From contig CAMBPQ010000019.1 in NCBI GenBank assembly GCA_945869735.1, forward strand, positions 1-47,184: a stretch of DNA of 47,184 nt. The letters run 5' to 3'. The notes beneath the pieces were generated by a model, which worked only from the letters and a program-made list of their open reading frames with translations, did no database searches and was not told the DNA's origin. Below are positions 25,799 to 32,045 of the stretch, piece after piece. The first letter of the stretch is position 1; each line of letters begins with the position of its first letter. The position numbers were made by a program, and so were the translations under genes. This DNA is from Planctomicrobium piriforme (GTDB taxonomy: Bacteria > Planctomycetota > Planctomycetia > Pirellulales > UBA1268).

Positions 25799-26485
25799 AT
25801 GCGTGGCCGAAAGTCGAACCAGGGTCCTCGAAGTGGGCAAGCGGCGGCCGTGTCGGTCCGCTGCCCATCGCGACCCGCGATCGCCGACTGGACGAAGGGC
25901 ATGCCCGTCTTCGTGCCGCAGGGCTACGAGCCGGGCTACGACTATCCCCTGCTCGTGTGGCTCACCGATCCGACTGACCGAGGCTTCGATCTGGCCAGGG
26001 TCATGACCCGCATGAGTCTTCGCAACTTCGTCGCGGTCCAGGCGACCGGGGGTGAGGCCGCCGTCTGGCGGGCCGCTGACACAGTGTCCGCGAGGTTGAG
26101 CATTCATCCACGCCGCATCTGGCTCATCGGCCACGGCATCGGGGGCACGGCGGCATTTCGTATCGGCTGCCGTCATCCTGATTCGTTCGCCGGTGTCGTC
26201 TCGCTGGGCGGTCCGTTTCCGCTCGACGAGTCGGCCTTCGCGCGGGTCGAGGCGGTTCGCCGCCTGCCGATGCTTTACTGCTGCCGCGGCAGCAGCGCCG
26301 TCTCCGCTGCGGCGCACACCGACCGCACGCTCCGGCTGTTTCATGCGGCAGGAGCGATGCTGGCCATGCGAATCTATCCGGGCAGCGGCGAGCTTTCGCG
26401 GGCCGCTCTCGGCGACGTCAACCGCTGGCTCATGGATGAGATCTGCGGCACGTCGGCCGGACTACGGGCCCATGCCGCCGGCTAG
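25799..26485 (+). CDS. Alpha/beta-hydrolase fold protein lacking the nucleophile serine
   Basis: This 228-residue protein resembles the esterase/phospholipase branch of the alpha/beta hydrolases: FVPQGYEPGYDYPLLVWLTD, then IHPRRIWLIGHGIGGTAAFR, then PDSFAGVVSLGGPFP. The nucleophile elbow should read GxSxG but is GHGIG, so the catalytic serine is a glycine. It is therefore probably a non-catalytic, binding or structural member. I chose the ATG at 25799 with GCGAGG about 8 bases upstream; a longer in-frame start is possible. It lies 48 bases before the HATPase-like gene and may be the first gene of the export operon. Confidence 0.72.
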   Translation: MRGRKSNQGPRSGQAAAVSVRCPSRPAIADWTKGMPVFVPQGYEPGYDYPLLVWLTDPTDRGFDLARVMTRMSLRNFVAVQATGGEAAVWRAADTVSARLSIHPRRIWLIGHGIGGTAAFRIGCRHPDSFAGVVSLGGPFPLDESAFARVEAVRRLPMLYCCRGSSAVSAAAHTDRTLRLFHAAGAMLAMRIYPGSGELSRAALGDVNRWLMDEICGTSAGLRAHAAG

Positions 26486-26533: not shown

Positions 26534-27067
26534 ATGACAGACGCATCAGACCGCCGATCCGCTTCCCGTCGTCGGGCCGGCACAGCCGATGCCGCGGATG
26601 AGCCGCACATCCTGGCGTTGTCCAAGACGCAGGCCTCTTCGTTGCGGGACGTGCTCGAGTCGATCGTCTCCGAAGTTCGCGGTCGCGTTGAAGGTGCCGG
26701 AGCGCGGGTGCGGGTGACGCTCGACGTCCCTGAGGGGCAGTTCGTCGACGCCGACCCGGCCCTGTTTCGCAGCGCGGTCGAGGCACTCCTGAACGCCGCG
26801 TTCGCCGCCGCCGTCCGGCCTGGTGCCGCGAGCGACGCGCCGCGAATCCGTGAGGTCGTCGTGACGAGCGTTGACGCGGACGACACCTTCGAACTCGAAA
26901 TCGCTGATTCTGGCAACCGGACGGCCGAGGATGCAGCCGCACTGGTGGGCGTCCGCGCCCTCGCCGACCGGGTCGGTGGCGATATCGTCGTCGCGGAATG
27001 TCCGGAAGGGGGCACGGCGGTCACGATCCGCCTCTCCCGGCGCCGGGGCCTGCGGAAGGCCGCCTGA
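26534..27067 (+). CDS. Histidine-kinase-like ATPase (HATPase_c) domain protein
   Basis: A 177-residue protein with a recognisable GHKL ATPase fold: an N-box-like VEALLNAAFAAAV near 86-98, a G1-like LEIADSGN (about 117-124) and a final GGTAVTIRLSRR strand. There is no histidine-phosphotransfer domain, sensor or membrane segment, so it is not a complete sensor kinase. The N-terminal 30 residues are disordered and charged. It could be a cut-down kinase ATPase, an anti-sigma-type kinase or a binding-only relic. It precedes the FliF-like gene by 16 bases, so it is probably co-transcribed with the export apparatus. Confidence 0.7.
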   Translation: MTDASDRRSASRRRAGTADAADEPHILALSKTQASSLRDVLESIVSEVRGRVEGAGARVRVTLDVPEGQFVDADPALFRSAVEALLNAAFAAAVRPGAASDAPRIREVVVTSVDADDTFELEIADSGNRTAEDAAALVGVRALADRVGGDIVVAECPEGGTAVTIRLSRRRGLRKAA

Positions 27068-27083
27068 CCGGAGGCCCGCGCCG

Positions 27084-28673
27084 ATGCACCACCCACGAGA
27101 TCGAACCATGGACGCCTCCCGTTTGGACGACCACTATCAGCGTCCCGCATCCCGAGTCACGCCGGCCCAGGTGATCGCCCTGGGGCTTGTCGCGATCTCG
27201 ATCGGCTGGGCGGCCTGGTTTCTCCGCGACCGCCCCATCAACGAAGAGGTGGAGTTGCTTCCCGGCACGGTGCTGCCGTCGTCGGAACTCGCGATCGTCG
27301 AGGCGGCCTTCGATCGTGCGCAACTCATCGGGCATCGCACTGAGGACGGCCGCGTCTGGGTGCCGCGGCCGCGGCAGAGCGCCTACATGCGGGCGCTGGT
27401 CGACGCGGAGGCGCTGCCGCGTGAGTTTGGTAGCAGCCTGAGGCGGGCGCTTGAGCAAAACAGCCCATGGCAGAGCAGGGCCGTGCAGGAGGAATCCCTC
27501 CGCGTGGCCGTTCAGGAAGAACTGGCCCATGTCATCTGCTCGATGCCCGGCATCGAGCGGGCTGCCGTGCTGTATGACGTCGATGACCGGACGTCCTTCG
27601 ATGGAACGCTTGGCGGCGCACCGACGCGAACCGCGAGCGTGAACGTGCGGACTCAGCCCGACAGTGAACTCGAACCGGTCCGTGTTCAGGCGATCCGCGT
27701 GCTCGTCGCCGCGTCGATCGCGGGATTGGAGCCGGAACGCGTCGCAGTGACCGACCTGCGGAGCGGCCGTGTGCATGCCGGTCCGCTGCAACCACTGGAT
27801 ACCGCCGACGCCGACGCGGCGGTCGACCCCGCACTTGCCCGCCGCATCATGCATGAGCGGCATTTGGCCGGGAAGGTGCGGCAGGGGCTCTCGTTCGTGA
27901 AAGGAGTCGTCGTCGACGTGAATGTCGCGTTTGCAACCGACGCCCCGCCGGAGCCCGTCGCCGAGCCAGGCCTGCCCCCCCGGCAGCAGCGGGTGGCCGA
28001 TGCCAACGCGCCTGCCGAGGTGACGATCGCAGACGATGCAGCGGCGCTACGGCCCGCCGTGGCCCGCCCCGGCGACGGCCCGGAGACGATCGTCGTGTCG
28101 CTCGCCATTCCCGAGACGTGGTTCGACAACGCCCTGCGGTCCGCCCGCGGTCACGATGCTACGGTCTCGAGCGATGCGGTCGATCACCACGAGGAGCAAC
28201 GGCTCCGCGACCATGTGCTTCAACTTCTCCCCACCGGCTCCACGCCTGATTCGCGTCGCGTCGTAATCACCCGGTTTCCTGCGAGTTCGTCCCGGTCTGA
28301 CGCCACGGCGCGGACTGTCTCCGCCGCCCCGCCGCCGCCCGCCGCCGCGACATCAACGCCAGCGGCTGGAAAGTTGAAAACACTGGGAGCCTACATCGAC
28401 GTCACCGTGCAGGCGATCAGCTCGGGCCAGCCGGCCGACGTGCCGCGCGAGGTCTGGATGGTCCTGATGGCCAAGTGCTCCGCGGTGCTCGCCTACATCT
28501 TCTACCGGAGCGGCTCGCGGGCCTCGGCGGCTTCGCCGCATGCCGCCGGCATCCCGGGCCGCCGTCGTGGCAGTGGCCGGATCGACTGGTCGTCGCTCGA
28601 CGCCCAGCCCGACCATGACGAGCGTGAAGATCGTAACGACCACGATGCCCCCGCGCCCCGGATAGCCGCTTGA
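27084..28673 (+). CDS. fliF: FliF-like MS-ring protein, divergent
   Basis: FliF forms the inner-membrane ring around the type III export gate. This 529-residue protein has one helix near the N-terminus (29-47), a first ring-building domain (about 52-115, with GRVWVPRPRQSAYMRALVDA), a second (about 125-235, with the FliF-like VLVAASIAGLEPERVAVTDL), a third partial one, and a C-terminal helix (about 457-474). The typical C-terminal FliG-binding sequence is not visible; the tail is Asp/Arg-rich. Start is uncertain: the ATG at 27084 has GGAGG 9 bases upstream; 27108 is an alternative. Its stop overlaps the fliO-like start (TGATG). Confidence 0.8.
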   Translation: MHHPRDRTMDASRLDDHYQRPASRVTPAQVIALGLVAISIGWAAWFLRDRPINEEVELLPGTVLPSSELAIVEAAFDRAQLIGHRTEDGRVWVPRPRQSAYMRALVDAEALPREFGSSLRRALEQNSPWQSRAVQEESLRVAVQEELAHVICSMPGIERAAVLYDVDDRTSFDGTLGGAPTRTASVNVRTQPDSELEPVRVQAIRVLVAASIAGLEPERVAVTDLRSGRVHAGPLQPLDTADADAAVDPALARRIMHERHLAGKVRQGLSFVKGVVVDVNVAFATDAPPEPVAEPGLPPRQQRVADANAPAEVTIADDAAALRPAVARPGDGPETIVVSLAIPETWFDNALRSARGHDATVSSDAVDHHEEQRLRDHVLQLLPTGSTPDSRRVVITRFPASSSRSDATARTVSAAPPPPAAATSTPAAGKLKTLGAYIDVTVQAISSGQPADVPREVWMVLMAKCSAVLAYIFYRSGSRASAASPHAAGIPGRRRGSGRIDWSSLDAQPDHDEREDRNDHDAPAPRIAA

Positions 28674-29275
28674 TGACACGCCACTGCACCACGGTCGTCG
28701 CGCTGGCCATGGTTGCCATGGTTGCCATGATCACGACATGTTTGGTCCGTGCCGACCCGCCCGTCGCGCCTGGTCCGGAGAGCGTGCAGATCGACGCCTC
28801 GGTCACGCCGGCTGCGCTCGTCACTGGCCTGGAGAGGGCGGCGGATGATGCGCGGCCCGGCTCCGTGTCGCTTGGACCTGCCGCCGGCACCGCCGCTTCG
28901 CCGCCGCGGTCGACCCGCCCGCTGCCCGACTGGAAACTGCTGGCGGCGATGGGGGCGGCGTTTGCCGCTCTGGCGGGCTACCGCCTGTTTTCGACCCGCC
29001 GGGGAGCGACCCTGCCGTCGGATGTGTTTGAGGTGCTCGGCGAAGCCCCGCTCGGTGGGCAACAATCGGTCCGAGTCGTTCGCTTCGGGCCGCGGACGCT
29101 GCTCGTCGGCGTGTCGGCCGCGGGCTGCCAGACGCTCGCGGAGCTCACCGATCCGCAGGCCACTGACCGCATCGCGGCTGCCTGTCGGGGCACACGCGTC
29201 CGCACCCAATCCAGCGGCGCCGCACGCGGTCAGACTCACGGCGCCGGGCCTTCGGCCGCGGAGGCCCGCGCGTGA
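28673..29275 (+). CDS. fliO: FliO-like export apparatus assembly protein
   Basis: FliO helps assemble the FliP ring. This 200-residue protein has a signal-like helix (about 9-28), a Pro/Ala-rich linker, a membrane helix (LLAAMGAAFAALAGYRLF, near 84-103), and a conserved cytoplasmic domain FEVLGEAPLGGQQSVRVVRF followed by GPRTLLVGVSAAG, the FliO core. The position directly before fliP, with a GTGA overlap, supports the call. The leader contains a repeated ATGGTTGCC triplet encoding Met-Val-Ala. Confidence 0.8.
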   Translation: MTRHCTTVVALAMVAMVAMITTCLVRADPPVAPGPESVQIDASVTPAALVTGLERAADDARPGSVSLGPAAGTAASPPRSTRPLPDWKLLAAMGAAFAALAGYRLFSTRRGATLPSDVFEVLGEAPLGGQQSVRVVRFGPRTLLVGVSAAGCQTLAELTDPQATDRIAAACRGTRVRTQSSGAARGQTHGAGPSAAEARA

Positions 29276-30150
29276 CCACCACCTCCTCGGCGATCCGGCG
29301 TCTCCTCGGCCTCGTGCTGGCCGTGGCTGCGGCGCTCTCTTCTGTGACCCTCACGGCGCTGGGGGAGGAGCCCGCGGGCGATATCCCGCGTGCCATCGCG
29401 CCGGGTGACGTTGCCGACGCGATCGCGACGGCTGCGGCGCCGGCGGCCCGATCGGCGGATGACGGCGGCTGGCTCGACCTGCTCCGGGGCAAGCGACTGG
29501 ATGCGGTGCTGCCATCGGCGGTGATGTTCGGCGTCATTAGCCTGGCGCCAGCCGTGCTCCTGATGACTACCTGCTTCGTACGGATGTCGGTGGTGCTCTC
29601 GCTCCTCCGGCAGGGGCTGGGCGCTCCGCAGATTCCGTCGAACCAGATCGTGGCGTCGCTCGCGATCTTCCTGTCGGCGATGGTGATGTGGCCCGTCTGG
29701 ACGCAGGCCTGGCGCGACGGCATGGAGCCCTATCGCCAGGGCACGCTCACTGCCACCGAGGCCTTCGACAAGGGCTCACTCCCCGTTCGCCGCTGGATGG
29801 CCGGTCAGATCGAGCAGGCCGGCAACCGTGACACGATGCTGCTCTTTCTCGCACGCCATCCCGCCGGTCCGAAACAGGCCGCGACCTACGACGACGTGCC
29901 GGTCGAGGCGCTCCTGCCGGCCTTCCTCGTCAGCGAACTGGAGACGGCGTTTGCGATCGGCTTCCGGATGCTGCTGCCGTTCCTTGTGCTCGACATCCTG
30001 GTGGCCACGCTCGTGGTCTCGACGGGGCTTGTAATGCTGCCGCCGTCGCTGGTGTCGCTGCCGCTCAAGCTGCTGGTGTTCGTGGCCGCGGACGGCTGGT
30101 CGCTGGTGGTGAGGTCGCTGCTCGACAGCGTGCGGACCCTGCCGTCGTGA
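29272..30150 (+). CDS. fliP: Type III export gate protein FliP
   Basis: FliP forms the core of the FliPQR export gate. A signal peptide (about 1-31) and a linker precede four hydrophobic segments. The family motifs are clear: VLLMTTCFVRMSVVLSLLRQ, QIPSNQIVASLAIFLSAMVM, and TAFAIGFRMLLPFLVLDI with VMLPPSLVSLPLKLLVFV. At 292 residues it is somewhat longer than E. coli FliP, mainly at the N-terminus. Start is GTG 29272, overlapping the fliO-like stop. Confidence 0.96.
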   Translation: MTTTSSAIRRLLGLVLAVAAALSSVTLTALGEEPAGDIPRAIAPGDVADAIATAAAPAARSADDGGWLDLLRGKRLDAVLPSAVMFGVISLAPAVLLMTTCFVRMSVVLSLLRQGLGAPQIPSNQIVASLAIFLSAMVMWPVWTQAWRDGMEPYRQGTLTATEAFDKGSLPVRRWMAGQIEQAGNRDTMLLFLARHPAGPKQAATYDDVPVEALLPAFLVSELETAFAIGFRMLLPFLVLDILVATLVVSTGLVMLPPSLVSLPLKLLVFVAADGWSLVVRSLLDSVRTLPS

Positions 30151-30175
30151 GCAGGGCCGCGGGAGAGAATCATCG

Positions 30176-30430
30176 ATGACCGAACAACAACTGGTCGAAC
30201 TCGTGAGGCAGGCTCTGGTCGCCGGGCTGGTCGTGGTCGCGCCGGTCCTGCTGGCCGGCCTCGCGGTGGGCGTGATCATGGGGCTGGTGCAGGCGGCCAG
30301 CGGCGTGCACGAGCCAATCGTCGGATTCGTCCCGAAGTTCGCGGTGATGGCGGTGATGGTGCTTGTCTCGCTGCCGTGGATGGTCGAGCGGCTCGCCAGC
30401 GTGTTTCGCGAGACGGTTGCCGGTCCGTGA
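30176..30430 (+). CDS. fliQ: Type III export gate protein FliQ
   Basis: An 84-residue, two-helix protein of the export gate. LVEVVRQAL-type start (QLVELVRQALVAGLVVVAP) and VGVIMGLVQAASGVHEPIVG followed by FVPKF match the FliQ pattern QAATQxNEQTLxFxPK. The gap to fliP is only 25 bases. Length and topology are normal. Confidence 0.95.
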   Translation: MTEQQLVELVRQALVAGLVVVAPVLLAGLAVGVIMGLVQAASGVHEPIVGFVPKFAVMAVMVLVSLPWMVERLASVFRETVAGP

Positions 30431-30470
30431 AAGACGGCGGCGGCAGCCCGCCCGCAGGCAGGAGCCCATG

Positions 30471-31268
30471 ATGGCCGCGACATGGTTGACAGAGGTTGCC
30501 TTCCCCGGCCCGATCGTGGCGGCGGGTGTGTTTGCGCGCATGGCCGCTGCGGTCGCAGTGGGCGGGGTGCCGATCGCAGTGGGTGTTGGCTTTCGCGTGC
30601 AGGCTGCGGTCGCAGTCGCGCTCACGCTGGCCGCCGTGCCGGCGGCAGGTGCCGTGATGCCCGCGACATCGCTGGACTCGCGGCCGCTGGTGTTGCTCGT
30701 GCTGGCGGAGGCGATCGTGGGCCTCGTCTTGGGCATGGCGGTGGCGACGGTGCTGGCGGCCGCGGGCTGGGCCGGTGGCATTCTCGGCAGCGCCACGGGC
30801 CTGTCGTGGTCTGATGACTTCACGCCGGAAGGCGATCCGCAGACGGCCGGCATGGCGCGGCTGGCCTGGTGGATGGGGCTGGCGGGATTCCTCGCCGCGG
30901 GCGGCCACCTCCATGTGGTGGCGGGGCTTGTCGACAGCGTGCGACTGCTCCCGATCGGCACGGCCTGCGGTGCCGACGGTCGCTGGAGCGCGAGTCTCGA
31001 GACGATTGCCACCACGATGCCGTCGGTAGCGATCTCGCTTGCCATTTCGCTGGCGGTGCCGGCGCTGGCGGCGGTGCTCGCCTTCCATCTCGTCGCCGCG
31101 ATCTGCGTGCGGACGGTCCAGTTCGACCCCGGCCAGGGAATCCTCCAAGCTGCCGCCTCGCTCGTGCTCTTGGCGGCAGTCTGCATCGGCACCGATTCCT
31201 GGATCGGTGGCTTCGCTGCGGTCGTGGAGGCGCCGCTCGAACGCTGCCTCCACGACGTCCGGCCCTAA
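30471..31268 (+). CDS. fliR: Type III export gate protein FliR
   Basis: A 265-residue protein with about six helices. The early segment VFARMAAAVAVGGVPI and the middle segment LVLAEAIVGLVLGMAVAT followed by WAGGILGSATGLSWSDDF correspond to the conserved FliR region (EllIGxxlG, then GqxiGxQxGLs). AGGAG lies at 30460-30464, making the second of two adjacent ATGs (30471) better spaced than the first (30468). FliR completes the FliP5Q4R1 gate in known systems. Confidence 0.92.
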   Translation: MAATWLTEVAFPGPIVAAGVFARMAAAVAVGGVPIAVGVGFRVQAAVAVALTLAAVPAAGAVMPATSLDSRPLVLLVLAEAIVGLVLGMAVATVLAAAGWAGGILGSATGLSWSDDFTPEGDPQTAGMARLAWWMGLAGFLAAGGHLHVVAGLVDSVRLLPIGTACGADGRWSASLETIATTMPSVAISLAISLAVPALAAVLAFHLVAAICVRTVQFDPGQGILQAAASLVLLAAVCIGTDSWIGGFAAVVEAPLERCLHDVRP

Positions 31269-31301
31269 TGATGCACCCTCTCACCTGCCCGGCCCGCACC
31301 C

Positions 31302-32045
31302 ATGTCTGATTCATCCGACCGCGTGATTCCCGCAACGCCCCGCCGACGCGAGGCCGCCCGCCGCCAGGGCGGGATGCCGACGGCCGCACTGCCAGCGTGG
31401 GTGGCCACGGCGGGCACGGCCGTTCTCCTTCTGCCAGCGTGGGCCGCCACGACGATGCCCGCCGCTGCCGAGATGCTCCGCGGCACGATCTCCGGCGCGG
31501 CGCGGGCCGCGCGGCACGGCGACGTGGCGCTGCCTGCCGTGATCGCGGTGGTGGTGCCCACCGTCGCTCTGGTGCTTGCCGCCGCGGCCGCCGGGATCGG
31601 CGTGCGGATCCTGCTCGATGGGTTTTCGTGGCAGCCGGCGCGGGCGCTGCCGATGCTCCGCCGGATCGATCCCTTGGCGGGATTGGCCCGGATCTTCTCG
31701 TTTCGCACGCTGACCACTGCCGTCGGCGCCGGCATCGGCCTCGCCGCGCTGGCGGCCGCCGCGGCCTGGTCGCTCCGGCCGCTGCTCGCCACCACGGCCA
31801 CCATGGCCGGGATCTCAGAGTCGACACTCGTGGCCGCCGTCGCCTGGCGATCCGCCGCCTGGCTCTTTGCCGCCGCCGCGATTGTGGCGGGGTGCCGGTG
31901 GGCGCTTGCCCGCCGTCGATTCGAACGGCAGATCTGCATGACGCCGCAGGAGTTTGCTGAGGAAGCCAGGAGCGCCCAGGCCGACCCGAAGATCAAACTG
32001 CTCCAGCGGCAGCGACCGCGTCAGCCCACCGCCGGCACAGCGTAG
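31302..32045 (+). CDS. flhB: FlhB-like export gate protein, lacking the C-terminal autocleavage domain
   Basis: The 247-residue protein starts with the FlhB-type ATPRRREAARRQGGMP and has four hydrophobic segments (about 29-49, 77-98, 135-160 and 175-200). The last part, RRRFERQICMTPQEFAEEAR followed by DPKIKL, matches the FlhB linker after helix 4. It then ends at QRQRPRQPTAGTA, before the NPTH autocleavage motif and the roughly 130-residue cytoplasmic domain that normally sets export specificity. I saw no NPTH-containing frame downstream. The 3' end overlaps the oppositely oriented sulfotransferase gene by 25 bases. Confidence 0.85.
   Translation: MSDSSDRVIPATPRRREAARRQGGMPTAALPAWVATAGTAVLLLPAWAATTMPAAAEMLRGTISGAARAARHGDVALPAVIAVVVPTVALVLAAAAAGIGVRILLDGFSWQPARALPMLRRIDPLAGLARIFSFRTLTTAVGAGIGLAALAAAAAWSLRPLLATTATMAGISESTLVAAVAWRSAAWLFAAAAIVAGCRWALARRRFERQICMTPQEFAEEARSAQADPKIKLLQRQRPRQPTAGTA

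Follow-up and report, generated by a model that had tools for sequence, protein, structure and literature searches.

In a 47,184-nucleotide contig (G000:C19, hereafter the window) of a metagenome-assembled genome (MAG; 3.17 Mb, 95% complete) of the planctomycete Planctomicrobium piriforme, we identified a flagellar export-gate cassette in which FlhB ends before its cytoplasmic switch domain. We propose, as an evenly balanced proposition, that this rodless flagellar-type gate is locked in late mode, exports the anti-sigma factor FlgM and so controls the sigma factor sigma28 in the absence of a flagellum. We propose FlgM as the substrate because flhA, sigma28 and flgM are linked, because no other linked substrate was recognised, and because a stop at codon 258 of Salmonella flhB permits FlgM export in a background devoid of rod, hook and Flk. 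The gene content, the truncation and its recurrence, the purifying selection, the sigma28/FlgM linkage and the conservation of the predicted promoter were established directly.

The genes lie head to tail on the plus strand, in the order hydrolase-like, HATPase_c-like, fliF, fliO, fliP, fliQ, fliR and flhB. The contiguity of fliF to flhB had been recognised in a sequence-only reading of the window, which gave their coordinates and order correctly, and all six products have Pfam matches.

25901..26485, plus strand: alpha/beta-hydrolase-like protein, start codon uncertain (weak Esterase/PHB depolymerase matches)
26534..27067, plus strand: HATPase_c-like protein, fast-evolving (PF02518, E 4e-5, under the curated cut-off)
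27108..28673, plus strand: FliF-like protein of the membrane-supramembrane (MS) ring, without FliG-binding tail (PF01514, YscJ_FliF, E 6e-17)
28578..28589, plus strand: RIDW motif of the cytoplasmic FliF tail (almost unchanged across 20 aligned FliF sequences of the window's family, f1)
28673..29275, plus strand: FliO (PF04347, E 6e-9)
29272..30150, plus strand: FliP (PF00813, E 2e-62)
30176..30430, plus strand: FliQ (PF01313, Bac_export_3, E 1e-17)
30468..31268, plus strand: FliR (PF01311, Bac_export_1, E 8e-25)
31302..32045, plus strand: FlhB transmembrane part and linker, without the cytoplasmic switch domain (PF01312, Bac_export_2, positions 3-238 of 335, 96 bits, E 3e-27)

All gate proteins were present and lay nearer to flagellar than to injectisome models; FliP scored 213 bits with the flagellar model versus 119-165 bits with injectisome SctR models. 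The ratio of nonsynonymous to synonymous substitution rates (dN/dS) of the gate genes was 0.08-0.38 against two relatives, and the genes are intact and under purifying selection.

A complete flhA was found on another contig (G000:C28:8009-10111, 626 bits), followed by genes for a FliA/WhiG-type sigma factor (sigma28) and a FlgM homologue, so that the earlier statement that flhA is missing holds for the window and is wrong for the genome. In this FlhA the cytoplasmic domain is complete and the D208 position is occupied by an acidic residue. The link of the gate to sigma28 and FlgM had escaped the sequence-only reading. In the window's genome we detected no rod or hook protein (Flg_bb_rod), no match to FliG_C or FliMN_C, nothing over the cut-off for the FliI/YscN model, which would also detect an SctN-type ATPase, and no autocleaving SctU switch domain. 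The claimed absence of fliI, hook and rod genes is thus genome-wide and extends to FliG and FliMN. A hidden FliI was ruled out, the two best matches being AtpD and AtpA of the F1 ATP synthase. No secretin or needle gene was seen beside the cassette, no genome-wide search for them having been made. Because the rod and hook proteins are absent, a flagellin filament is unlikely in this genome. What is retained is FliF, FliO, FliP, FliQ, FliR, the FlhB transmembrane part, FlhA, sigma28 and FlgM; this set is a minimal FlgM exporter, and the tested parts that serve early substrates and rotation, as well as the ATPase, are missing from it.

The FlhB protein comprises 247 amino acids and ends just past the linker DPKIKLLQRQ (...TPQEFAEEARSAQADPKIKLLQRQRPRQPTAGTA). 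Since its residue 240 pairs in the alignment with residue 249 of a 383-residue FlhB in the PDB, its end corresponds to about residue 256 in Salmonella numbering, upstream of the NPTH region, in agreement with the earlier observation that the NPTH domain is lacking. An assembly error or frameshift was ruled out by conservation of the truncation in 60 f1 genomes. A free gene for the FlhB C domain was likewise ruled out, a search at E<=10 having found none elsewhere in the window's genome. The window's FliF retains two membrane helices and the ring-building domains, and its AlphaFold model (first transmembrane helix, ring-building domains, second transmembrane helix) matches Salmonella MS-ring structures (mean predicted local distance difference test score 70; predicted template modelling score 0.32). 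It has no FliG-binding tail, as had been noticed from its sequence; the tail (...DPRAAASVLKTWIGNAS) is kept by FliF of related families having FliG. The remaining FliF tail is disordered apart from the RIDW motif, which is predicted to form a short helix and hardly varies within f1, the family without the FliG-binding tail.

The FlhB truncation is family-wide in f1, a family of freshwater planctomycetes represented by 72 genomes of 12 genera; all genomes compared are assemblies, some of them fragmented. Truncated FlhB was present in 60/72 f1 genomes, which, with its recurrence in the order, answers the question of conservation in relatives, and every vertically placed copy stopped within profile positions 223-248. 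The sole full-length f1 FlhB lies on a 4.5-kb contig that also carries a full-length FlhA (G062:C272; L043, L080) and is probably contamination. FlhA was detected in 65 of the 72 genomes, and the high-quality genomes retained FlhA in 34/34 and FlhB in 31/34. No f1 genome had a rod or hook protein (0/72), and the same search returned 4-7 matches per searched flagellated genome of the order. These counts support, as to gene content, the earlier suggestion that the cassette serves secretion by a device separate from both flagella and injectisomes. The genes flhA, sigma28 and flgM were adjacent in most f1 loci read, and in L120 they stand beside genes that flank the flhB cassette. Across f1, sigma28 was 82-95% identical versus 48-81% for FlhA. 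In one genus (g10; L122, L123), FlhA lacks or has diverged at profile positions 405-455, which cover the linker and the start of the cytoplasmic domain.

Across 197 genomes of the order, FlhB was bimodal, with full-length copies on one side and copies that stop near position 222-248 on the other, and truncation was associated with the loss of the rod. Rod proteins were found in 0/20 listed non-f1 genomes with only truncated FlhB and in 8/8 with full FlhB (4 genomes with both copies and 4 full-length controls; Fisher P = 3e-7, relatedness not corrected for). The FlhB range is not listed for G073, G076, G125, G205 and G209, of which G125 has rods and the other four, among them the single-contig genome G076, do not. 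One exception, G194, is rodless with an FlhB of near-full length, the C domain of which lacks the NP motif.

To place these gates, a tree of 50 rows was built from FliP, FliQ, FliR and the FlhB transmembrane part using IQ-TREE. The truncated set was polyphyletic, and supported branches forced at least 4 changes. A truncated f13 pair grouped with full-length f13 sequences (100/100), the truncated L149 grouped with full-length f17 (99/94), a truncated f15 clade stood separate (99/98), and f1 and a pair from f17 were the further truncated groups. That the truncated system arose only once was ruled out (0% of bootstrap trees). In this tree the f1 gate sequences fell within the order's flagellar sequences.

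The rodless loci of f13, f17 and f3 still encode FliG-, FliH-, FliI-, FliJ- and FliN-like proteins (domains confirmed by Pfam in L146), and their FliF keeps the FliG-binding tail; FliN in the other rodless families is 74 amino acids long. Because these families still have FliG, FliH, FliI, FliJ and FliN, f1 is the most reduced stage. In three loci of other families (L141, L143, L146), flhA and sigma28 adjoin flhB.

Four genomes that have rods (G163, G175, G184, G193) possess, in addition to a native truncated gate, a very divergent FlhB with the NPTH motif (L216-L219 vs L137-L140). A second paralogous system beside a native flagellum had been suspected from them; the tree showed the truncated copy to be native and the full copy to be divergent. 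The full copy was probably acquired, as if the flagellum had been reacquired. As a separate observation, full-length FlhB in most flagellated genomes of the order (L129-L136, L207-L226) carries NPTE in place of NPTH, and the motif is changed further in two f13 genomes (NPAE, NSAG).

FlgM is the classic late substrate of the flagellar export apparatus, and sigma28 is its export chaperone. In Salmonella, early mode is maintained by the cleaved C domain of FlhB together with Fluke (PMC13344023). When the rod and hook genes and flk were absent, selection for FlgM export yielded mutants that passed FlgM-Bla through the gate; all were altered in the FlhB C domain, and one of the changes was a stop at codon 258 (PMC13344023). 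If the proton motive force is raised, type III export can proceed in the absence of the ATPase complex (PMC4230889). In the proposed mechanism, the FliP-FliQ-FliR-FlhB-FlhA gate, assembled in the FliF ring with FliO, would outlive the loss of the rod, hook, C-ring and export ATPase. Lacking the domain that holds it in the early, rod- and hook-accepting state, the gate would always be in late mode, with the proton motive force as its sole energy source. FlgM would be the late substrate encoded with the gate, with sigma28 taken as its export chaperone; its export into the periplasm would free sigma28 and thereby set the output of sigma28 promoters. Besides flgM, the putative targets are the gene for an IHF/HU-type DNA-binding protein and, perhaps, cysK. 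A wider interpretation is offered more tentatively: planctomycetes of this order would repeatedly have made the flagellum a pure regulatory organelle, a rodless gate kept in late mode by natural loss of the FlhB switch domain, whose chief task would be to export the anti-sigma factor and thereby control sigma28-dependent genes, one of them encoding a nucleoid protein.

A conserved TSAAG-N-GYCGATRA element occupied the same place in the flgM leader in most of 20 f1 loci, indicating a candidate sigma28-type promoter upstream of flgM in most f1 loci. A motif built from this element, with one mismatch allowed, matched more than twice as often as the reversed pattern in 22 genomes of the genus. Two sites recurred. 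The first was that of flgM (13 genus genomes, by contig position). The second, TCAAGTTTGSCG...GCCGATAC, was present in 17/22 genus genomes (G000:C12:48777-48804; L187:7778, minus strand) and lay about 155 bp upstream of an IHF/HU-family gene in the 14 genomes in which the DNA was read, with a sigma70-like TTGACA...TAGGCT promoter directly downstream of it. In four genomes (L202-L205), a sigma28-like site ending GCCGATAA or GTCGATAA was located 30-100 bp upstream of cysK-like genes. No sigma28 site was found for the fliF operon. The long flgM leader (G000:C28, L004, 11168-11498) contains conserved blocks, including GTCGCCGGAACGCGGAAGCGCGGCAAC, which could form a hairpin with a GGAA loop; it folded only slightly better than shuffles and matched no Rfam family.

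Several points weigh against the FlgM-export proposal. Gate assembly, late mode, FlgM as the exported protein and the direction of regulation are all inferred, and the sigma28 promoters were read from sequence only. The FlgM match is weak though conserved (PF04316, E 8e-7, under the NCBIfam cut-off), and the FlgM model found no match in the loci of the other rodless families, where the gene may lie elsewhere. FlhA carries Glu rather than Asp at position 208. The f1 gate is fast-evolving (branch 2.6), and its function may have shifted. Late locking in Salmonella also required the loss of Fluke (Flk) and raised expression (PMC13344023).

Among the alternatives, the one that survives best, although we consider it unlikely, is general secretion: the rodless gate would export adhesins, enzymes or effectors to the periplasm or, with an outer part, to the outside, and sigma28/FlgM would only regulate the gate. 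The conservation of the gate under purifying selection is consistent with this, as is the retention of FliH, FliI, FliJ and the 74-residue FliN in other families, as if for substrate loading. However, no linked substrate or chaperone gene was recognised in f1 beyond FlgM/sigma28, no search aimed at an outer-membrane part having been made, and the best sigma28 sites precede flgM and the IHF/HU gene rather than genes for secreted proteins.

A moonlighting role, in which the gate proteins act without export, appears less probable still. Its precedent is the non-flagellated Lysobacter enzymogenes, in which FlhA, FlhB, FliI and FliR act on type IV pili and kept flagellar export genes modulate twitching (PMC7277350). 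In that bacterium, however, FliP and FliQ are dispensable for the role (PMC7277350), whereas here the complete gate, with FliP and FliQ, is kept in order family-wide. A decaying relic of a lost flagellum is improbable: parts are lost in a graded manner across families and the f1 branch is long, but the dN/dS values and the retention of FlhA and FlhB in high-quality f1 genomes argue against decay, and within FlhB only the C domain was removed, repeatedly. A real but unusual flagellum, which the sequence-only reading had offered and which might be entertained for MAGs known from sequence alone if rod, hook and filament proteins had diverged beyond recognition, is scarcely credible given the 0/72 count against the flagellated genomes of the order and the absence of FliG, FliMN and FliI from the window's genome.

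Around the gate genes, the hydrolase-like gene kept its position in most f1 loci and also adjoins fliF in L146, and the HATPase_c-like gene also lies 5' of fliF in f17 (L149) and f3 (L151). The two had been described as not belonging to the usual components of flagella; they are real and conserved in place in f1, but because they also flank fliF in families keeping FliG, FliH, FliI and FliJ, they look like old operon neighbours and not new parts of a special device. The neighbourhood spanning cytochrome oxidase accessory genes, mdh, and the sulfotransferase and tetratricopeptide-repeat genes was kept in most related MAG loci with contigs long enough. Judged from long single reading frames, FliF and FliO are apparently fused in one group (L014, L016, L018, L020, L021), and FliO and FliP in other groups (L008, L011, L013, L017).

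These findings provide a natural, repeated counterpart of a mutant only recently selected in the laboratory and hence independent evolutionary evidence on the purpose of the FlhB switch domain: where the rod and hook are lost, the switch domain is lost and the gate stays. They suggest that a type III gate may serve without an appendage, which bears on the evolution of flagella and injectisomes from or into simpler exporters, and the parts list is small enough to reconstitute a minimal type III exporter.

We found no report of planctomycete flagellar remnants or of such a gate system in the open-access literature; the available part of Andrei et al. 2019 (PMC6461901) describes a flagellar apparatus in only some freshwater groups and does not discuss retained gates. 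With the flagellar export gate (FliPQR-FlhB-FlhA with FliF and FliO), the present system shares all gate proteins and an flhA beside sigma28, but it has no rod, hook, FliG, FliMN or FliI, its FlhB lacks the switch domain and its FliF lacks the FliG-binding tail. Injectisome-type non-flagellar type III secretion systems (NF-T3SS) share the homologous gate and inner ring and the lack of motility parts, whereas the window's genome has no SctN-type ATPase or SctU switch domain and its sequences are nearer to flagellar models. The 'Myxo' short and long NF-T3SS of Myxococcales (Abby and Rocha 2012, PMC3459982) are likewise conserved type III loci of reduced content that lack motility parts and were formerly described as relics; they group with injectisomes (PMC3459982), whereas the present gate lies among the flagellar sequences of its order, a distinction drawn via separate trees. 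Lysobacter enzymogenes likewise keeps export genes in a non-flagellated bacterium, but this is a single lineage in which FliI is kept and needed and the role concerns type IV pili, and FlhB truncation is not mentioned in the available part of that report (PMC7277350). The closest parallel in FlhB is offered by the rod- and hook-less, flk-null Salmonella flhB truncation mutants (Chevance et al. 2026, PMC13344023), in which FlhB is cut at nearly the same residue and FlgM is available. Those mutants arose by laboratory selection, whereas the truncation described here is natural, fixed family-wide and evolved at least 4 times, with the C-ring and ATPase also lost.

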